From an uncultured OCS116 cluster bacterium (lineage in GTDB: Bacteria; Pseudomonadota; Alphaproteobacteria; Rhizobiales; TMED25): 64,000 nt of DNA. Made by a program: the position numbers and the translations under genes. The stretch is from assembly GCA_902613795.1 (NCBI GenBank), contig CACMIP010000001.1, positions 230,087 to 294,086 on the forward strand. The letters run 5' to 3'. The notes below the pieces were generated by a model. It was not told the origin of the DNA. It ran no database searches and saw only the letters and a list, made by a program, of their open reading frames with translations. Below, one piece after another: positions 7,810 to 64,000 of the stretch. The first letter of the stretch is position 1; every line of letters starts with the position of its first letter.

Positions 7810-10800
7810 ATGAACAAGTTCATTGACATATTACACTCACAGCCAAGAACGATCATCACACTTCTACTGGCTTTAATAATCGGTGGTATTTACTCCTACA
7901 TAACAATACCAAAGGAGTCAAACCCTGACATAGATATACCTGTATTTTATGTATCTGTCCCTCAGCCGGGAATTAGTTCCCAAGACTCAGAGAGGCTTAT
8001 ACTTCGACCACTAGAAAATAAACTCAAGGGGATGGATGGGCTGAAGCAGATACAATCAATTGGGGCCGAAGATTATGGAGCTGTAATCTTGGAGTTTGAT
8101 ATCAAAATTGATAATGAAAAAACATTGGCTGATATTCGTTCAAAAATATCTGAAGTTGAGTCTGAACTACCCGATGAGGCAAAGGAGCCAAAAGTCGTAG
8201 AAATTAATTTTGCTCTCATACCATCGATAATCGTTACAGTATCTGGTAATGTGCCTGAACGTACGCTTAATAAATACGCCAATAACCTTCAAGATGAGAT
8301 TGAAGAGTTGGACTCAGTATTGAGCGCCGACTTAGCTGGCGCAAGAGATGAGATGGTTGAGGTTATCATTGACACATCAAAACTTGAGTCTTATAACCTT
8401 ACAGCTCTTGAACTAATCAATGCCATCAATCAAAACAATAAAGTTGTATCTGCGGGCGCTGTAGAGAGTGAGAATGGCAAATTTAGCATAAAAGTTCCAG
8501 GCCTATTCAAGACCATTCAAGATGTTTATTCAATCCCTGTAAAAAGAAATGGGGATATTATAATCACACTTGGTGAAGTTGCTGAAATTAAGCGAACTTA
8601 TGCTGATCAAAACGATTTCAGTAAATTTAATGGCAAACAAGCAATATCAATTGAAGTTGTTAAAAGATTGGGCGTGAATATCATTGAAAATAATAAGAAT
8701 GTTCGATTGGTTGTCGATAACTACACAAAAGACTGGCCAGATGTTATAGAGGTTGACTATTCGTTTGATCAATCAACAAATATTTTTGAAGTCTTGAAAT
8801 CGCTTGAGGCAGCTATTTTAACGGCGGTAGTGCTGGTCATGATAACTGTAATTGCAGTTTTGGGAGTCGGTCCCGCGCTGCTTGTTGGCATTGGTATTCC
8901 AATTACTTTTACCATAAGTTTTCTTATTGTAAATTTACTTGGTATGACGGTAAATATTATGGTGCTATTTGGTCTTGTTCTGACCGTTGGTATGCTGGTT
9001 GATGGCGCTATCGTTATTGTTGAATACTCTAAAAAACTTACAGAAAGAGGATCACCACGCAGAGATGCTTTCCTGAACGCATCCAAGCGAATGTTTTGGC
9101 CAATTGTTGCATCAACTGGTACAACATTAGCTGCATTCTTACCCATGTTATTATGGCCTGGCGTAGCTGGACAATTCATGAGTTATTTGCCAATTATGGT
9201 CATAATAGTACTGAGCTCAGCTTTGGCGACCGCTTTAATCTTCATTCCAGTAATAGGGTCTGTAGGGGGGGATAATGCAGATAATGCGTATCAAAAAATT
9301 ACAAACTACGATGAGACGCTATACGGGAAAGTTGTTGAGACTGTAATCAGGCGTCCATTTGTAGTGCTAATATCCGCATTAGTATTGGGTTATATCATAA
9401 TGAGTAGCTTTGTTAAGTTTAATAATGGTGTTGATTACTTTGTCGATCAAGAACCAGAAGAGGCAGTAATATTTATCTCAGCCAGAGGCAATCTATCATT
9501 ACACGAAAGCAAAAAAATGATTGAAGAAGTTGAGGCGGCCGTTCTGAACGTACCTGGCATTGAAAATATAAATACAAAATCTAAAATTGATAGTGGTGGC
9601 AGTCCTGCCGATCAGCAAGATGTACCAGTTGATGCGATAGGTCAAATAAGTATTGAATTGTTAGATTTTGAAAAGAGAAGGAAGGCGAGAGAGATTTTTG
9701 ATGAGATCATAGAAAATACTAAAGGTATTGCGGGGATCAACGTTGAGATAAGAAAAGTTGAAGGAGGGCCCCCTACGGGTAAAAATATCAGACTTGAGGT
9801 AACTTCAGCAAATTATGAAAATGCATTCAAAGCCACTCAGCAAATTAGAAGTTACTTTGATAATAACCTTGATGGTATTAAGGATATTGAGGATACACGA
9901 CCTCTGCCGGGTGTAGAGTGGACTGTTAATGTAGACAGAGAAAAGGCTGGCATCTACAACACAGACGTTGCTACAATTGGTTCTGTAATAAGACTTGTAA
10001 CTAATGGGGTATTGGTTGGCAACTTTAGACCAGATGATTCAGAGGACGAAATTGAAATCCGCGCCAGACTTCCAAAAAGTGATAGAAATATAGATCAATT
10101 AGACCAGCTGAGCATTGAAACCCAGGTGGGGTCAATTCCAATCAGTAATATCATAACTAAATCTTACCGTGACTCAGTTCCAAACATAAGTAAGTTAAAT
10201 GGTAAATTTGCCTTTGTTGTAAAAGCTAATACTGATTATGGCGTTAACACAGATCAAAAAGTTGGTGAGATTGAACAATGGCTTTCGACTCAGCAATGGC
10301 CCGAAGATCTTAAATTTAAATTTCGTGGCGCGGATGAAGAACAAAAAGAGGCTGGTGATTTTCTCAGTAAGGCTGCAATAGCAGCACTTGCATTGATGTT
10401 CATAATTCTTATTACGCAGTTCAATAGTTTTTACCAAACATTCCTAACCCTCTTCACTGTAATCTTATCAGTATTTGGAGTTATGTTGGGTATATTAATA
10501 ACGGGTCAAACATTTTCAATAATCATGACTGGAACAGGTATTGTTGCACTTGCAGGAATTGTAGTAAATAATGCAATTGTATTTATAGATACTTACAACA
10601 CAAATCTCAAAGAAATGAAAGATCCCATAAAATCTGTCATTCAAACTGCTAATGAGAGATTTAGGCCAATTCTTCTAACAACAATAACAACAATTATGGG
10701 ATTAATCCCGATGGCAACGCAAATAACATTTGATTTTATTGGGCGTGACGTTTTAGTCGGCGGAATAACTTCATCATGGTGGGTTCAGATGTCAACAGCG

Positions 10801-10941
10801 ATAATATTTGGACTCTCTTTTTCCACTATACTGACGCTAATATTATTGCCAACATTATTAGTAATGCCTTATGTTATAAAAAATAGGAAGATGCTAAAAG
10901 TTAAGAACCAGGAACCATTAAAACCTGCCCAGGAAATATAA
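7810..10941 (+). CDS. RND efflux transporter permease (AcrB/HAE-1-like)
   Basis: 1043 aa with the two-repeat RND layout (LVLTVGMLVDGAIVIVEYS; GIVALAGIVVNNAIVFIDTYN; RFRPILLTTITTIMGLIPMA). Confidence 0.94.
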   Translation: MNKFIDILHSQPRTIITLLLALIIGGIYSYITIPKESNPDIDIPVFYVSVPQPGISSQDSERLILRPLENKLKGMDGLKQIQSIGAEDYGAVILEFDIKIDNEKTLADIRSKISEVESELPDEAKEPKVVEINFALIPSIIVTVSGNVPERTLNKYANNLQDEIEELDSVLSADLAGARDEMVEVIIDTSKLESYNLTALELINAINQNNKVVSAGAVESENGKFSIKVPGLFKTIQDVYSIPVKRNGDIIITLGEVAEIKRTYADQNDFSKFNGKQAISIEVVKRLGVNIIENNKNVRLVVDNYTKDWPDVIEVDYSFDQSTNIFEVLKSLEAAILTAVVLVMITVIAVLGVGPALLVGIGIPITFTISFLIVNLLGMTVNIMVLFGLVLTVGMLVDGAIVIVEYSKKLTERGSPRRDAFLNASKRMFWPIVASTGTTLAAFLPMLLWPGVAGQFMSYLPIMVIIVLSSALATALIFIPVIGSVGGDNADNAYQKITNYDETLYGKVVETVIRRPFVVLISALVLGYIIMSSFVKFNNGVDYFVDQEPEEAVIFISARGNLSLHESKKMIEEVEAAVLNVPGIENINTKSKIDSGGSPADQQDVPVDAIGQISIELLDFEKRRKAREIFDEIIENTKGIAGINVEIRKVEGGPPTGKNIRLEVTSANYENAFKATQQIRSYFDNNLDGIKDIEDTRPLPGVEWTVNVDREKAGIYNTDVATIGSVIRLVTNGVLVGNFRPDDSEDEIEIRARLPKSDRNIDQLDQLSIETQVGSIPISNIITKSYRDSVPNISKLNGKFAFVVKANTDYGVNTDQKVGEIEQWLSTQQWPEDLKFKFRGADEEQKEAGDFLSKAAIAALALMFIILITQFNSFYQTFLTLFTVILSVFGVMLGILITGQTFSIIMTGTGIVALAGIVVNNAIVFIDTYNTNLKEMKDPIKSVIQTANERFRPILLTTITTIMGLIPMATQITFDFIGRDVLVGGITSSWWVQMSTAIIFGLSFSTILTLILLPTLLVMPYVIKNRKMLKVKNQEPLKPAQEI

Positions 10942-11923
10942 GGTCTGGATCAACTATCTGGTTTGAATTAGCCAAGTAAATAACCGTATATTGCATTCCG
11001 GTTCCATACTTTGTCCTTGAGATATTCCATAAATTATCCCCCGGTTCAATAGTTATAGTATTTATCCCAAAATTACCGTCCACATCATCGAATAATCTGG
11101 TAAATTTGGTTGATGTTCTTGCGATAACAAATCTTTCATCATCGACCATATCAGCTCTAATTTCATATTCACCAGGTACGATGTTATCATCTATATTTAA
11201 TGTCCACTTGCCTAATTTATCAGAGATTGCGGTACCAACGTACTCATTATCAATATATGCGTTTACCTCTTTATTCGCTTCAGCATTACCGCCCAATACC
11301 AAATTTTCTTCATTATAGTCGATGCTTTGAATATTAACGATTGTTTCATCTTGTAAAAAACTTGGATCATTGGATAATATCTGACTAGCTTTATCATCTT
11401 GGGTCAAAAGTACAATATTTTCATCACTTAATAAATTCTCTGCTTTATCAACTATTTTATTTGGCATAATTGTTACAATTTGATCCGAGAAAACCTCGAT
11501 TTGATCCCCTGGATTGGTCGTTGAAATTTTCAAATTCAAAACCTCATTGGGAATATTATCATCAAGAGTTATAACCCAATTCCCTTGGGTATCAGATAAA
11601 CCTTCTGCTATCAAAAAATCATCTTTATAGATCTTAATTATTTGATTTGGAGGTGATTTTCCAGCTAAGACAGATACACCGTCATTATCTATCCTGACAA
11701 CGTCAAATGAACCCTGGGCTTTCTCGACGGGAAAAGTTTCTGTTTTGGCTTCATCCATACTTTTTTGGCCTACTTCGGATGTTCTTGTAATAACTTCGTC
11801 CTCAGTCATAACGGCATCTTCTTGTTTCTGAGACGATAAGTATTGGAAAATAAAAAGGAATAAGACTAATAGAAAAAATGCTAGAATAGATAAATTTTTT
11901 TTATTGTTAAACATTGGAAACAA
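10901..11923 (-). CDS. Membrane-anchored protein with two Ig-like repeats and a C-terminal LysM domain
   Basis: N-terminal TM (LSILAFFLLVLFLFIFQYL); two repeats of the GxVxxxLD type (DTQGNWVITLDDNIPNEVLNL; DKLGKWTLNIDDNIVPGEYEI); LysM (ITIEPGDNLWNISRTKYG...DPDLIFPGQVLMVP). Confidence 0.85.
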   Translation of the reverse strand: MFPMFNNKKNLSILAFFLLVLFLFIFQYLSSQKQEDAVMTEDEVITRTSEVGQKSMDEAKTETFPVEKAQGSFDVVRIDNDGVSVLAGKSPPNQIIKIYKDDFLIAEGLSDTQGNWVITLDDNIPNEVLNLKISTTNPGDQIEVFSDQIVTIMPNKIVDKAENLLSDENIVLLTQDDKASQILSNDPSFLQDETIVNIQSIDYNEENLVLGGNAEANKEVNAYIDNEYVGTAISDKLGKWTLNIDDNIVPGEYEIRADMVDDERFVIARTSTKFTRLFDDVDGNFGINTITIEPGDNLWNISRTKYGTGMQYTVIYLANSNQIVDPDLIFPGQVLMVPGS

Positions 11924-12028
11924 TCACTTAATGTTTTATTTTATTATAGTATTATAAAAAGCAAATTAAAGTATTTTCTATCCGGATAAGGTATATAAAT
12001 TTCTATTAATAATTAATATGGTGTTCAA

Positions 12029-12574
12029 ATGACCAAAACTGTATGTATTTTTTGTAGCACATTTAATCCTGAAAATCGCTTCCTAGATGAAGTTACACAT
12101 CTCAGTGAGTTATTTTCAGAAAAAAAAATTAATATGGTTTATGGCGGAGGCGATAAAGGTCTCATGGGTCATGCGGCACGATCAATGATCAATAAGGGTG
12201 TCAAAGTAACAGGAATTGTGCCTAAGTTTCTCATGAAATATATTGATAGGAATATTGGCTTCCACAGGCTAATAGAAACTAAAGACATGCATGAACGAAA
12301 GCTGACAATGTACAGCTTATCTGATATTTTTCTTGTCTTACCTGGTGGTATTGGCACCCTTGATGAGATGACAGAAGTCTTGACCTGGAACCAACTTGGG
12401 GTTCATACTAAAAAAGTAATTATTGGAAATTTCGAAGAATTTTGGACTCCGTATATAGATTTACTCATTCACCTAAATAAATTTAAATACCTCAGCGATT
12501 TATCTCGCATAAATTATTCAATCGCCAGCAACGCAAGTGATATACTGAAATTGATTGAAGCGCCCGATCACTAG
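12029..12574 (+). CDS. LOG family protein (TIGR00730 type nucleotide 5'-monophosphate phosphoribohydrolase)
   Basis: MVYGGGDKGLMGHAA and PGGIGTLDEMTEVLTWNQLG, matching the PGGxGTxxE motif. Confidence 0.9.
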   Translation: MTKTVCIFCSTFNPENRFLDEVTHLSELFSEKKINMVYGGGDKGLMGHAARSMINKGVKVTGIVPKFLMKYIDRNIGFHRLIETKDMHERKLTMYSLSDIFLVLPGGIGTLDEMTEVLTWNQLGVHTKKVIIGNFEEFWTPYIDLLIHLNKFKYLSDLSRINYSIASNASDILKLIEAPDH

Positions 12575-14178
12575 GCTATATTATAAGCCTTTGAGTGTAT
12601 TAATCTATAATTTATAGAGTCGTATAGAGCTTGAAATGATGCATCCATTATATTTGGCGATACTCCTATGGTAACCCACCTCTCACTGGTCTCAGTATCA
12701 GCAGACTCGACAAGTACACGCGTAACAGCACCTGTACCTCCGGATAAAACACGAACTTTATAGTCTACTAACTTCGTATTCTTGAGATATTTGTTATACT
12801 TACCAAGATCTTTCCTCAAAGCATTATCAATAGCATTAACCGGTCCATTACCTTCACCTGATGAGATAAACCTCTCACCATCGACTTCTAGCTTTACAGT
12901 CGCTTCAGATACAGTTATGAGCTCACCCTTTGCATTGTTCCTTCTTTCTACAAGAGTACGAAAACTTTCAACATTGAAAAAATCCTTTGATTTACCAAAA
13001 ATACTTCGAGCCAAGAGCTCAAATGATGCTTGCGCGCTCTCATATGTATAGCCCGCGGCTTCACGTTCTTTAACAATATTTAATAAATCTGCTATCCTAG
13101 AGTCATCTTTATCTACATTGAGTCCAATATCTTTTAAAGATGATAAAATATTCGAACGTCCACCTTGGTCAGAAATCAGAAGTTTTCTATCATTTCCGAT
13201 TAATTTTGGATCCACATGCTCATAAGTTTTAGGATCTTTTACAATTGCGGATGCGTGAATACCCGCTTTTGTTGAAAATGCACTATCACCGACATATGGG
13301 GCCTGTTTGTTAGGCGCCCTATTCATAATATCATCGATGATAAGGCTTGTTTTTCTGATATTCTTGAGTGAGTCTTTTGTAATAGATATATTAAAATTTT
13401 TATTAAACCTCTCCTTTAATAGTAAAGTTGGTATTAGCGTGATGAGATTTGCATTTCCACACCTTTCACCAATACCATTGAGGGTTCCTTGAATCTGACG
13501 AACGCCAGATTGAACAGCGGCAAGACTGTTTGCTATTGCATTACCAGTATCATTATGGGCATGGATACCGAGGTGATCTCCAGACACCGTTTTACACACA
13601 TCACTCACAATTTCAGATACTTCATCAGGCAATGTACCACCATTTGTATCACATAAAATAATCCATCTTGCTCCCGAGTCGAAAGCTGCTTTTGCGCAAG
13701 CGAGCGCGTATATTTTATTTTTTTTGTATCCATCAAAAAAATGTTCGCAGTCGACCATAACTTCTGAATGTGTTTTTGATGCCTCTTTTACTGACTCTGT
13801 TATTGAAGCTAGATTTTCATCGAGTGAGCAGCCAAGAGCCTTTTCAACATGAAAATCCCAAGATTTTGCTACAAAACATATCGCGTCTGCTTTATTTGAT
13901 AAAAGATCATTAAAACCAGGGTCATTTGATATTGATCTCCCAGGTCTTTTTGTCATTCCAAATGATACAAATTTTGATTTTTTAAGGTCTGGTAGCGCGT
14001 TAAAAAAATCTGTATCAATTGGATTTGCTCCTGGGTATCCACCTTCGATATAATCGACGCCAAGCTCGTCTAGAATATTTGATATTCTGTTTTTATCATC
14101 AAGCGTGAAATCAACGCCAGGCGTCTGATTACCGTCTCTTAGCGTGGTATCAAATATATATAAATTATCCTTGGTCAC
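12571..14178 (-). CDS. cimA: Citramalate synthase
   Basis: HMGL-like domain (IFDTTLRDGNQTPGVDFTLDDKNRI, YIEGGYPGANPIDTDFF, LCDTNGGTLPDEV, GIHAHNDTGNAIANSLAA) plus a LeuA-type allosteric domain; 535 aa length fits CimA. Confidence 0.9.
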   Translation of the reverse strand: MTKDNLYIFDTTLRDGNQTPGVDFTLDDKNRISNILDELGVDYIEGGYPGANPIDTDFFNALPDLKKSKFVSFGMTKRPGRSISNDPGFNDLLSNKADAICFVAKSWDFHVEKALGCSLDENLASITESVKEASKTHSEVMVDCEHFFDGYKKNKIYALACAKAAFDSGARWIILCDTNGGTLPDEVSEIVSDVCKTVSGDHLGIHAHNDTGNAIANSLAAVQSGVRQIQGTLNGIGERCGNANLITLIPTLLLKERFNKNFNISITKDSLKNIRKTSLIIDDIMNRAPNKQAPYVGDSAFSTKAGIHASAIVKDPKTYEHVDPKLIGNDRKLLISDQGGRSNILSSLKDIGLNVDKDDSRIADLLNIVKEREAAGYTYESAQASFELLARSIFGKSKDFFNVESFRTLVERRNNAKGELITVSEATVKLEVDGERFISSGEGNGPVNAIDNALRKDLGKYNKYLKNTKLVDYKVRVLSGGTGAVTRVLVESADTETSERWVTIGVSPNIMDASFQALYDSINYRLIHSKAYNIA

Positions 14179-57977: not shown

Positions 57978-59012
57978 CTAGCCTTTAATAAGTTCTTCTA
58001 ATTTTTTGAATAAAATATTTATGTTTGATGGATCCAAATCTATCTTACCGCTGTGTGTCATTTTCGCTATTTCCACAACAGCATCATTATACGGTGTTGA
58101 AATCCCAAGTTTGCGCCCCTCTCTTGAAACTCTACCGTTGATAAACTCAATCTCACTTCGCCGTCCTTTTACATGATCTTGAGCTGCGTGTGTCCTTGCA
58201 TTAGGGCCCACATCTTTAACCATTTTTTTCATAACAAGTTCAGCTGCATCTTCACCAGCATTCCCAATATCCTCGTTTGTCAGACCAAAAAGTGGTTCAA
58301 TCATATAACCCAGAGCTTTTCCAACTTTGAAGGACTCTCTTCCAACCCCAACAGAAAAATCAAACATACCGGGCAACTTTACCGCTTCCCAATTTTTCAA
58401 ATTCAAGGATGAAAATGGGCATGTCATTGAATTCGCAATTAACTTTGTCCATTTAGCCCCATAAATATTGTCAGTTAAATCACATTTTCCAACATTTAAC
58501 ATGATCTTCTGAACCTCTTTTAGTCTTGAAGTAATCTCACCGCTTAATTCTCCAACTGCAAACCAAGTCCCGGATGGAACTGTATTTCTCTGCACAAATC
58601 CAGGGTTGAATATTTCACAACTTAACTCAACGACAGCACCAATCACATTTTCTCTACCAACCATATCCGCATTTAAATCGTCATTATATGCATTTTGTAA
58701 GCCAACAAAAACACCTTTATCTTTTAAATATACTGAAGCAAATTTTGACACCCATTGAGTGTCATAGGCCTTAACAGCCATTAATATAAGATCAAATTGG
58801 GGCTGTAACTTTGCTAAATCACTCATATGATATGCAGAGACCTTTGTATTTTTTTCCCCCTCTTTGGTAGTTACAGTAAGGCCATCTCGTCTGATTTTAT
58901 TAATATGATCTGCCCATTGATCAACTAATATAATATCTAATCCAGCATCAGTAAGCGACGCCGAAACACAAGAGCCAATAGCCCCTCCACCTAATACACA
59001 TATTTTTTTCAT
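57978..59012 (-). CDS. Ketopantoate reductase (PanE/ApbA) family oxidoreductase; possibly an oxalyl-CoA reductase by context
   Basis: ICVLGGGAIGSCVSASLTDAGLDIILVDQ, AKWTKLIANSMTCPFSSL, GRRSEIEFINGRVSREGRKLGISTPYNDAVVEIAK. Last gene of a five-gene operon. Confidence 0.85.
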   Translation of the reverse strand: MKKICVLGGGAIGSCVSASLTDAGLDIILVDQWADHINKIRRDGLTVTTKEGEKNTKVSAYHMSDLAKLQPQFDLILMAVKAYDTQWVSKFASVYLKDKGVFVGLQNAYNDDLNADMVGRENVIGAVVELSCEIFNPGFVQRNTVPSGTWFAVGELSGEITSRLKEVQKIMLNVGKCDLTDNIYGAKWTKLIANSMTCPFSSLNLKNWEAVKLPGMFDFSVGVGRESFKVGKALGYMIEPLFGLTNEDIGNAGEDAAELVMKKMVKDVGPNARTHAAQDHVKGRRSEIEFINGRVSREGRKLGISTPYNDAVVEIAKMTHSGKIDLDPSNINILFKKLEELIKG

Positions 59013-59029: not shown

Positions 59030-60706
59030 CTAGAACAGGCCTTCAATATTACCGCCCCTATCTAAATAAATATTCTCTGCAGCTGGCTTTCGCGGCAATC
59101 CGGGCATTGTCATAATATCACCAGATATTGCAACGATAAACCCTGCTCCGGCTGATAGCCTGAGCTCTCTGATTTCAATATCATGATCTACAGGCGCGTT
59201 TTTCAAAGTTGAATCTGTTGAAAATGAATATTGCGTCTTCGCCATGCAGATTGGTAGTTTACTAAAACCATTCTTTTCCAAATCACTAATTTGAGTTTTA
59301 ACTTTTTTAGTTAAAATAACATCCTTAGCACGATAGATTTCCTTAGCAATTTTAGTTATTTTATGCTCAATTCCCTCCTCAAGCTCATACAAATGTTTAA
59401 AATCTTGATCAGCATTTCCACACAAATCTATTACTTCTTTTGCAAGGTCAGTAATTCCACTTCCGCCCTCAGCCCAATGATTCGATAAAATCACTTTACT
59501 CTTAATGCCACTCTTATCTATTGCTTCAATTAGAGTGCTTATCTCACTGTCAGTGTCATTAATAAATCTATTTATGCATACGACGGTCGGTACACCAAAT
59601 TTTGATATATTTTCCAAATGTCTTATCAAGTTCGCAGAACCGGCATTGACTGCGTCATTATTCTCTTCTTTCAATTGATCGATCTTAACACCCCCATGCA
59701 TTTTTAGGGCTCTCACTGTCGCAACTACAACTGCAACGGACGGTTTTTCATCAAGATAGCGACACTTAATATCAAAGAACTTTTCAGCACCTAAGTCAGC
59801 ACCAAAACCGGCTTCCGTAATCACAAAATCAGATAATTTTAAAGCTAAGTTTGTCGATATGATTGAATTACACCCATGCGCTATATTTGCAAAAGGCCCT
59901 CCATGTACAAATGCTGGATTGTTTTCCAGAGTCTGCACAAGGTTAGGCTTTAGCGCATCTTTCAATAATACAGCCATTGCTTGATTTGCACCAATTTGCT
60001 TTGCTGTTATCGGTTCTTTATCTCTTGTGTATGCAACAACAATCTTACCGAGCCTTTCTGTGAGCTCTTTTAAGCTACTTGAAAGACAAAATATTGCCAT
60101 AACCTCGGACGCAACTGTAATATCAAATCCATCAGATCTCGGGTAGCCATTAGAGATACCACCAAGAGAGGTAACTATTTCTCTGAGCGACCTCTCATTC
60201 ATATCAAGTGCTCTACGGATTGCTATTCTTCGAGTATCGATGTTGAGTGCGTTACCCCAATAGATATGATTATCAACCATTGCGCAAAGCAGATTATGCG
60301 CAATTCCGATGGCGTGAAAGTCTCCTGTAAAGTGAAGGTTTATATCTTCCATAGGGATAACTTGTGAATAACCACCTCCTGCTGCGCCACCTTTCATTCC
60401 AAAGCAAGGTCCAAGTGATGGTTCACGAATACAAATTGTTGCTTTTTTTCCAAGCTTATTGAGACCATCACCCAGCCCAACTGTCGTTGTTGTTTTTCCT
60501 TCTCCAGCAGGTGTTGGCGTGATAGCAGTTACTAGTATCAGTTTCCCGTTTTTCTTACTTTTTAAATTATTAATGAAGTCAAATGAGACTTTTGCCTTTA
60601 GCCCACCATATGTTTCAATATCATTTTCACCTAATCCAAGCTTTTCTGCTATTTTATTAATATTTTGCGGTTTGGCGGCCCTTGCAATTTCTATATCCGT
60701 TGTCAT
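59030..60706 (-). CDS. fhs: Formate-tetrahydrofolate ligase
   Basis: [87 protein letters not shown]. Confidence 0.97.
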
Positions 60707-60739: not shown

Positions 60740-61657
60740 TTAATTTCCCAGAATATCACCAGACTTCATATTACTAATTTCTGCGTATTCTATTGCACTC
60801 ATTTTTTTTCCATTATGTCGAAATTTTTGAATGGATATTGTACCATGCCCTGTACTTATTTGTATGCCAACTTCTTTATCAATATTACAGATATAACCGG
60901 GTATGTTTTGATGGTCATTAATTATTTTTACATCATATAACATAATTTCATTACCGTTATGTAGAGTCCAAGCACCCGGCTGAGGGTCACTTGCCCGAAT
61001 GAGAGCGTGAATTTCATTTGCATGCTTTGACCAGTCGATTTTTGATTGCTCTCTACCAAACCAGCTTTCATATGAGCCTTCATCAAGATTTTGATCAATT
61101 TTTGGTGCATTGCCGCTTTTAATTAATTGAATTGACTCTTCAATTGAGTCAACACCCATGGGAAATAATTTATTAAAATATAAAGCGCCAAGAGTTTCAT
61201 TTTCATCAATGGTGCATTCTTTTTGTAATAATATAGGTCCTGTATCGAGGCCATCATCAGGCCAAAATATAGTTATCCCTGTTTTTTTTGATCCTATTGA
61301 TATAGGCCAATTTATTGACGAGGGACCTCGGTGCATGGGTAACAATGATGGGTGATATTGAATAGACCCCTTCCGAGGTAAGTTTAGAATTGCACTGGGT
61401 ACAATCAGCGTCACGTATGCCATGACGCATAAATCTGCATCAAAAGATTCCATTAATTCATATGCTTCATCTGTTTTCCAGCTTGCTGGTTGATGAACTG
61501 GAATATTATTTGCATTTGCAGCTTCAACTAACGGATCAAGATTTCCATTTTTTTTATTGGGAGCGGCACAAACCGATACAATATCCTCATTATTTGATAA
61601 AAGTCTCTCCAATACTGCACTTCCGAATGCCTGCTGCCCGTGTACTACAATTCGCAT
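60740..61657 (-). CDS. Formyltransferase-fold protein resembling the N-terminal 10-formyl-THF hydrolase domain of 10-formyltetrahydrofolate dehydrogenase
   Basis: GQQAFGSAVLERL, GSIQYHPSLLPMHRGPSSINWPISIGSKKTGITIFWPDDGLDTGPILLQKEC. This resembles the ALDH1L1 N-terminal domain, by memory, more than Fmt. Confidence 0.82.
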   Translation of the reverse strand: MRIVVHGQQAFGSAVLERLLSNNEDIVSVCAAPNKKNGNLDPLVEAANANNIPVHQPASWKTDEAYELMESFDADLCVMAYVTLIVPSAILNLPRKGSIQYHPSLLPMHRGPSSINWPISIGSKKTGITIFWPDDGLDTGPILLQKECTIDENETLGALYFNKLFPMGVDSIEESIQLIKSGNAPKIDQNLDEGSYESWFGREQSKIDWSKHANEIHALIRASDPQPGAWTLHNGNEIMLYDVKIINDHQNIPGYICNIDKEVGIQISTGHGTISIQKFRHNGKKMSAIEYAEISNMKSGDILGN

Positions 61658-61666
61658 TATTAAACT

Positions 61667-62917
61667 CTATTTCATCGCATCTGTTTTATTGATTTCAACC
61701 AGCTCCTCGTCGCTGTAATTGAGAAAATCTTTTAAAATTTCTTCGTTATGCTCCCCTAATAAAGGCGACCTTTGGACATCCGCTTCCGAGTTTGATAATT
61801 TAATTGGACAACCGACAGTGATGTATTTACCTCTTTCAGGATGGTCAACTTCAACAACGGTTCCAGTTCGCCTCAAGGACTCATCATGAGCTATCTCTTT
61901 CATTGATAATATTGGCCCACAAGGAATGCCAAGTGGGTCACATATTGATACGACTTCAAATTTTGTCTTGGTCATTGTCCATTTTTCTATTGTCTCAAAT
62001 ATATGTGATAATTTATCTAATCTTGCTTTAGGAGATGAGTATTCGGGATCACTGATCCAATCATCTCGACCAATAACATTACAAATTTTATCCCATACAG
62101 GCGCTTGTGTAATAAAGTAGACATAAGAGTCAGGATCATCCTCCCAGCCCTTGCATTTAAGAATCCAACCAGGCTGCCCTCCACCAGAATCATTTCCTGC
62201 GCGGGGAGTCGTATCTGTGAATGGAATCCCCTGACCAAATTGACTATATTCAGATAGTGGTCCGCTGGATAACCTCTGATAATCTCTTAATTTTACCCGA
62301 CATAAATTCACAACCCCATCTTGCATCGCGACGTCAACCTTCTGTCCAAGACCTGATTTCTCTCGATGGAACAGAGCTGTTACAATTCCCAGTGCGAGGT
62401 GCAAGCCAGTACCCGAGTCCCCTATTTGTGCTCCTGTAACAAGGGGTGGACCATCAAGAAAGCCTGTGGTCGAGGCAGCGCCCCCAGCGCATTGGGCAAT
62501 ATTTTCATAGACCTTACAATCTTCATATGGCCCAGGCCCAAAACCTTTTACTGAGGCTAGAATAATTCTTGGATTTAATTTATGCATATGTTCCCAACCG
62601 TAACCCATCCTATCCAGCGTTCCCGGAGCAAAATTCTCAACAAACACGTCACATTTCAATATCAAATCGTCTAATATTTTTTTACCTTTGTCATCTTTAA
62701 CATTTAAAGTAATAGATTTCTTGTTATGGTTTAGCATTGTAAAATATAGTGAGTCCACACCATCTTTATCACGTAGTTGCGAGCGAGTGATATCACCACC
62801 GCCTGGTCGTTCAATTTTAATAACGTTTGCACCAAACCAAGCCAGGAGTTGGGTGCATGTTGGACCTGATTGAACATGTGTAAAATCAAGTATTGTTATA
62901 CCTTTTAATGCTTCCAT
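61667..62917 (-). CDS. frc: CaiB/BaiF family III CoA transferase, formyl-CoA:oxalate CoA-transferase-like
   Basis: [121 protein letters not shown]; very close to the known Frc pattern. Confidence 0.88.
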
Positions 62918-62927
62918 TTGATATTTC

Positions 62928-64000
62928 CTACTTATACATTGTCTGGGCTTTGGTGCCAGGTGCATACTCGTTGGGATCAACCCATATATTGACCACGACT
63001 GATTTCTTTGTTTTATTTATAAGCTTTCTTGCTTCATTCAGAGCAGAACTAATCTCATTTGGCTCATGAACTTCAATTCCATGCGCACCCCACATTTTTG
63101 GAAAATCTGAGAACTTCATATCACCAAGTTTATTGGCAATATCACCTTTTTGCTGACCATACTTCGCAAGCTGTCCATATCTAATTTGATTCATTGCTGA
63201 ATTATTTCCAATCACCGCAATAAATGGCAATCCAAACCTATCAGCTGTTTCAATATCAAAGGCCGTCATTCCAAAAGAACCATCACCATAGTAGCATAGA
63301 ACCTCCTTATCAGAATTAGCAAGTTTTGCCGCAAACGCGAAACCTGTTCCAACTCCAAGACTGCCGAGTGCTCCTGGGTCCATCCATTGACCAGGGTTTT
63401 TTGGTCTCACTGCTTGCGCTGATATTGTAACAACATCACCACCATCACCAATAAAAATTGTATTATCATCAAGAAACTCATTTATTTCATACGCGACTCT
63501 ATATGGATGGATTGGCATACTATCTGATTTGAATGTTGGTAGGAGTTTCTCATACTTTTCATCTTCTTTACTGGATAATAATTCTATCCATTTATCTCTA
63601 CTTTTTTCAATCTTTGCTTCGTAAGATTTTGGCATTAAATCGGTAATTTGTGACAAAACAGAGCCAGGATGACCAACAAGTCCAATGTCAATATCTCTAT
63701 TTTTTCCCACATTTGAATAATCCTGATCTATTTGAATTATCTTGATATCTGATGATATTCTTGATCCGTAGCCCATTCTAAAGTCAAAAGGAGTACCAAC
63801 AATGATTATGGTATCTGCCTGCTTGAATGCGTCTCCCCTCGTTCTATCAAATGAGTACTTACAACCTTTAGCGATCATTCCTCGGCTTGCACCATTTGTG
63901 TAAGCTGGTATTTTTAATTTCTCTATAAATTGATTTGCTTCAATATGACTTCTTGATTGCCACACCTGTTGCCCAAAAAGGATCGCTGGTCTCTCTGATT
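62928..64000 (-). CDS. Thiamine-pyrophosphate-dependent enzyme (acetolactate synthase / oxalyl-CoA decarboxylase superfamily); N-terminus lies beyond window
   Basis: TPP-binding [64 protein letters not shown]. The frame stays open to the window edge ([16 protein letters not shown]), so the GTG at 63965 is not the true start. Confidence 0.85.

Follow-up and report, generated by a model that had tools for sequence, protein, structure and literature searches.

Oxalyl-CoA decarboxylase and 2-hydroxyacyl-CoA lyases produce formyl-CoA, which formyl-CoA:oxalate CoA-transferase (Frc) needs for the activation of oxalate. We know of no enzyme that has been demonstrated to be dedicated to the passage of formyl groups between folate and CoA. 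In the 2-hydroxyisobutyrate pathway, a specific formyl-CoA-consuming enzyme could not be found (PMC7176365), and the supply and consumption of formyl-CoA apart from Frc is the question on which the gene described here bears. A supporting legend in PMC3720670 gives half-lives of 1.9 h for formyl-CoA and 29 h for oxalyl-CoA; the Frc cycle leaks because formyl-CoA is so short-lived. HypX has been proposed, from structures, to move a formyl group from 10-formyl-THF to CoA; the same paper notes that direct evidence is missing (PMC6802093). In FDH (ALDH1L1/L2), the formyl group is passed to the thiol of a 4'-phosphopantetheine arm (PMC8748788, PMC4388273), and the FDH hydrolase domain is known to hand it to a thiol, that of mercaptoethanol (PMC4388273).

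The window analyzed here is a stretch of 64,000 nucleotides from an uncultured OCS116 cluster bacterium (contig CACMIP010000001.1, positions 230,087 to 294,086). It carries an operon with the gene order ThDP enzyme, frc, FTH, fhs and a gene for a ketopantoate-reductase-like protein, separated by gaps of 1, 9, 33 and 17 nt (Table 1). The open reading frame that we call FTH starts with ATG and contains both motifs, HPSLLPMHRGPSSINW and FWPDDGLDTGPILLQKEC. Pfam assigned it two domains only, Formyl_trans_N (105 bits) and Formyl_trans_C (74 bits); an ALDH or fused carrier domain was not found in the scan of the 305-residue protein, nor was an N-terminal ACT domain. The initial annotation had described these motifs without an ALDH domain and had placed the gene between frc and fhs, and both points were confirmed, all three genes being on the same strand. 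The ThDP gene runs past the edge of the window, and its complete copy was read in another locus, L084.

Table 1. Features of the operon and of the FTH protein; positions are counted from the first letter of the window.
Feature	Position	Strand	Basis or remark
ThDP enzyme, 3' part; 2-hydroxyacyl-CoA lyase/ALS-like	62928..63998	minus	whole gene is L084 7015-8763
frc, formyl-CoA:oxalate CoA-transferase	61667..62926	minus	TIGR03253, 693 bits (cut-off 504); directly upstream of FTH
FTH, stand-alone FDH-hydrolase-like formyltransferase, 305 aa	60740..61657	minus	ORF, Pfam, sequence and fold matches, tree
FTH short loop, residues 33-47 (15 residues)	61517..61561	minus	20 residues in 13/13 Fmt
Active-site strand Q100-Y-H102-P-S104	61346..61360	minus	His102/Ser104 = FDH His106/Ser108; Gln/Cys replaces Asn of Fmt and Ile104 of FDH
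G136-L-D138-T-G140	61238..61252	minus	Asp138 = FDH Asp142, invariant
fhs, formate-THF ligase (Fhs)	59030..60706	minus	892 bits; downstream of FTH
Ketopantoate-reductase-like protein	57978..59012	minus	candidate oxalyl-CoA reductase from context alone

The host genome is 1.32 Mb in size and belongs to a marine alphaproteobacterium of OCS116/Rhodobiaceae type, judging from relatives whose proteins are 98–99% identical, and the fhs gene of the operon is its sole formate–THF ligase gene. It contains exactly three Formyl_trans_N genes, a PurN-like gene, a true fmt and FTH, with no PurU among them. Across the divergent promoter region lies the gene for an HPP-like membrane protein (read from sequence), possibly a transporter of small anions; an NAD formate dehydrogenase gene (677 bits, cut-off 329) is found there as well. 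In L084, this divergent region (9187–13979, outside the window) encodes the HPP-like membrane protein, the NAD formate dehydrogenase, a flavin monooxygenase and an amidase, and these genes are kept in close relatives.

FTH shares Formyl_trans_N and Formyl_trans_C with methionyl-tRNA formyltransferase (Fmt), to which it is ≈31% identical with fold TM-scores up to 0.94, and a database record names one FTH copy fmt_2, as would suit a second Fmt. However, the window copy scored 165 bits against TIGR00460 (Fmt), below the curated cut-off of 201.5, as did all nine relatives scored (132–176 bits), whereas the true Fmt of the host genome (G000:C1:482283) reached 268 bits. A superfamily search of 12 FTH-bearing genomes likewise found Fmt-like and PurN-like genes elsewhere in the genome beside FTH. 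The loop after strand 2, which in Fmt is long and basic, serves tRNA recognition and has 20 residues in all 13 Fmt compared, is shortened to 15 in FTH (14 in one member) and is 14 in FDH, and the catalytic Asn of the N-x-H motif, present in 13/13 Fmt, is replaced in the FTH family by Gln (34/38) or Cys (4/38). In a maximum-likelihood tree, rebuilt without HypX and ArnA because their branches were very long, the 13 Fmt split off at 100/100, and all FTH sequences grouped on the opposite side with zebrafish FDH, whose exact position among them is not settled. The reading of FTH as a tRNA Fmt paralogue was rejected on score, loop, tree and the separate true Fmt, and we give it almost no credence. 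The initial annotation had set the gene apart from typical tRNA Fmt, and this was borne out: FTH lies outside the Fmt clade, and another Fmt is encoded in the same genome.

The best match to FTH by E-value, in both sequence and structure, was the FDH hydrolase domain (PDB 4qpd, 1s3i). Among solved relatives found by sequence, FDH hydrolase domains came first (4qpd, E = 1e-59), followed by Fmt (E = 2e-42). In a fold search with the FTH model (pLDDT 95), the FDH hydrolase domain was again best (E = 1.6e-35), and HypX was also matched (E = 4e-21). The TM-scores of Fmt were slightly above those of FDH, and fold alone therefore cannot separate the two. FTH and the FDH hydrolase domain share HPSLLP, GLDTG, a Tyr–Glu pair at FDH positions 200–201 and the short loop. 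FTH differs in being bacterial, in standing alone without a carrier or ALDH domain, in its tie to Frc and in the replacement of Ile104.

His102, Ser104, Asp138, Tyr196 and Glu197 of FTH correspond to FDH His106, Ser108, Asp142, Tyr200 and Glu201 and were invariant in the 38 members compared. Most of the folate pocket is also kept, judging from residues mapped onto the zebrafish FDH contacts (PMC4388273), so that the catalytic triad and folate pocket expected of a 10-formyl-THF:CoA formyltransferase appear, by sequence, to be present. FDH position 104 sets hydrolases, which have Ile there, apart from formyltransferases, which have Asn; the I104N mutant keeps <10% of hydrolase activity (PMC4388273). 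The Gln or Cys found here, Gln100 in the window copy, seems to fit transfer better than hydrolysis, an argument from a single residue. Thus, the FDH-hydrolase active-site architecture initially ascribed to the protein holds for the His, Ser and Asp residues and for FDH as the best match, but not for the Ile that marks the hydrolases.

We collected 80 relatives of FTH, sampled as those sharing short peptides with it, so that remoter homologues are under-represented; the family is mostly proteobacterial, and we came across no account of it in the open literature searched. Upstream room to judge the neighbor was available in 75 loci, and in 60 of these the next gene upstream on the same strand was frc. 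The order TPP enzyme–frc–FTH was found in 50 loci, in which the first gene was ThDP 2-hydroxyacyl-CoA-lyase-like in 26 and oxc-like in 24, and 33 loci had the full order TPP enzyme–frc–FTH–fhs. Open reading frame picking misassigns genes in high-GC loci, and later neighbor calls were blast-anchored only.

Horizontal transfer could by itself carry adjacent genes together, and co-occurrence was therefore tested in 241 genomes of the class studied, where FTH proteins scored at least 281 bits and non-FTH proteins at most 137 bits. Frc over the curated cut-off was present in 15/15 FTH genomes, which belong to 12 families, compared to 19/241 overall (p = 1.5e-20), and Fhs in 15/15 compared to 96/226 genomes without FTH (p = 5e-6); these p-values assume independent genomes, which the genomes are not fully. 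FTH lies away from frc in seven of the 15, adjoining fhs in two and sitting among genes without evident connection in five, and operon adjacency alone was accordingly judged an unlikely source of the Frc link. In a wider set, 42 of 46 genomes with an FTH relative had Frc over the cut-off; the other four include outlying relatives (L036 and L071) and draft assemblies. The tie of FTH to formyl-CoA metabolism is strong and extends past the operon, and FTH, usually mislabelled as Fmt, is a separate conserved partner of oxalate-degrading enzymes. This also bears on the idea that FTH, in the manner of ArnA or VioF, formylates a sugar or an amine. It has the same fold as these enzymes and a comparable two-domain architecture, and Gln chemically resembles the Asn found in amine formyltransferases. 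No recurrent sugar or amine pathway genes were found around FTH, which tracked Frc instead, making such an acceptor very improbable.

FTH could also be a 10-formyl-THF hydrolase, a PurU-like valve that releases formate and THF and offsets Fhs under oxalate-derived formate. Its nearest characterized relative is the FDH hydrolase domain, and none of the 15 genomes with FTH in the class has PurU. PurU deformylase (TIGR00655) has the Formyl_trans_N domain and 10-formyl-THF as substrate in common with FTH, but FTH, which has no ACT domain, scored only 24 bits over residues 63–159 against a cut-off of 286. The PurU count lost weight once conditioned on Fhs: PurU was found in only 15 of 96 Fhs-positive genomes without FTH (p = 0.22 for the difference), and its absence with FTH is thus explained by Fhs. 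Furthermore, PurU was present alongside FTH in all four of the Comamonadaceae without Fhs that were checked, showing that FTH is not simply a PurU substitute, and substitution as the sole explanation was rejected. A hydrolase beside fhs would also make a futile cycle, would be at odds with the replacement of Ile104 and would leave the tie to Frc unexplained. We consider a hydrolase unlikely, and the earlier suggestion of a formyl-folate release valve is weakened.

From these observations we infer that FTH is rather probably a formyltransferase between 10-formyl-THF and CoA. The formyl-CoA-making direction is favored, as it agrees with the operon and the Fhs correlation. FTH would be the soluble, unfused equivalent of the FDH hydrolase domain, with free CoA in place of the phosphopantetheine arm; CoA bears the same arm, and by analogy a thiol route would be natural for this fold. 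FTH shows no obvious CoA domain like that of HypX, and the family-conserved residues K163, W199, R280 and K285 are candidates for a CoA site. In the proposed mechanism, 10-formyl-THF would sit in the conserved folate pocket, where His102, Ser104 and Asp138, together with Gln100, would bind the formyl oxygen during attack by the thiol of CoA, yielding formyl-CoA and THF in a reversible reaction. The N-terminal domain of HypX (PDB 6j1f) has the same fold, and its proposed reaction is the one we ascribe to FTH, but it is only 16–18% identical, is fused to a decarbonylating CoA domain and makes CO for hydrogenase. The initial annotation had called such an activity new; the chemistry has precedent, as a proposal in HypX and in the phosphopantetheine thiol of FDH, while transfer between formyl-THF and CoA itself stays plausible.

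Coupled to its neighbors, FTH might take part in a cycle that activates oxalate with ATP and uses formate solely as a catalyst, a scheme that we offer tentatively and with more doubt than the transfer itself. Fhs would convert formate, ATP and THF to 10-formyl-THF, FTH would pass the formyl group to CoA, and Frc would turn formyl-CoA and oxalate into oxalyl-CoA and formate, returning the formate. The net effect would be activation of oxalate at the expense of ATP, starting the Frc/decarboxylase cycle, and Fhs and FTH would replace the CoA thioester that hydrolysis destroys or that is removed when oxalyl-CoA is reduced to glyoxylate. The same role, supply of oxalyl-CoA to the Frc/Oxc cycle, would be filled by the acetyl-CoA:oxalate CoA-transferase YfdE/UctC (PMC3720670), which is unrelated to FTH and takes CoA from acetyl-CoA, not via folate. 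Activation driven by Fhs and ATP cannot be universal, because Fhs is absent from Comamonadaceae that keep FTH; in these bacteria, either serine must supply the 10-formyl-THF or the flow is reversed.

In another use of the same enzyme, formyl-CoA would be converted to 10-formyl-THF, bringing oxalate carbon into folate without Fhs. Thioester energetics favor this direction unless Frc and the decarboxylase pull the other way, and it is conceivable that FTH works only so, capturing the formyl group made by the decarboxylase or lyase into folate and sparing the ATP spent by Fhs. Such use would be thermodynamically easier and would account for FTH in Comamonadaceae without Fhs, and a plasmid copy of FTH has glyA, ppc and sucCD in its neighborhood, which hints at a serine cycle. 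On the other hand, FTH would then compete with Frc for the formyl-CoA needed to activate oxalate, whereas the family goes together with Frc and, in the class studied, with Fhs. We therefore regard an exclusively reverse role as quite improbable. If our reading of FTH as a 10-formyl-THF:CoA formyltransferase is correct, it would be the first dedicated enzyme of this kind, and one FDH-fold enzyme that tracks Frc would join the CoA and folate one-carbon pools. If the ATP-driven cycle holds as well, it would explain how bacteria that lack a second CoA-transferase set going and replenish an oxalate cycle dependent on formyl-CoA. The enzyme would also provide a ready-made bridge for engineering formyl-CoA and formate pathways. 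Some proteins annotated as fmt would then be something else.

One such protein is the FTH of the marine Paracoccaceae plasmid pLA6_002 (L119, 9001–9918), which is labelled fmt_2 (methionyl-tRNA formyltransferase), likely a misannotation; it sits within an oxc–frc–fhs operon alongside tripartite transporter genes. Two outlying relatives, both from genomes without Frc over the cut-off, have other surroundings. The divergent relative in L036 (5454–6395) adjoins an opposite-strand formate dehydrogenase alpha gene, and that in L071 (8001–8927), which has Cys at the Gln100 position, lies directly before glcD/glcE-like glycolate oxidase genes.

The slot before frc is filled either by a true oxalyl-CoA decarboxylase or by a 2-hydroxyacyl-CoA-lyase-like enzyme. 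All seven oxc-type copies scanned were canonical oxalyl-CoA decarboxylases, at ≈1000 bits. The ThDP enzyme of the window, in contrast, reached none of the NCBIfam cut-offs and is without the Tyr–Glu pair of oxalyl-CoA decarboxylase (YEE is changed to LQE or LQD). Enzymes of this type, related to 2-hydroxyacyl-CoA lyase and ALS, are a candidate for a second, unrecognized formyl-CoA-producing decarboxylase or lyase; both oxalyl-CoA decarboxylase and the known lyases of the 2-hydroxyacyl-CoA lyase group yield formyl-CoA. At the other end of the operon, the ketopantoate-reductase-like protein may, instead of being PanE, reduce oxalyl-CoA or glyoxylate; an oxalyl-CoA reductase is attributed to Schneider 2012 in PMC3720670. 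Members of the ketopantoate-reductase superfamily, partly of a different subfamily, recur near other FTH loci (La6, Polaromonas and others).
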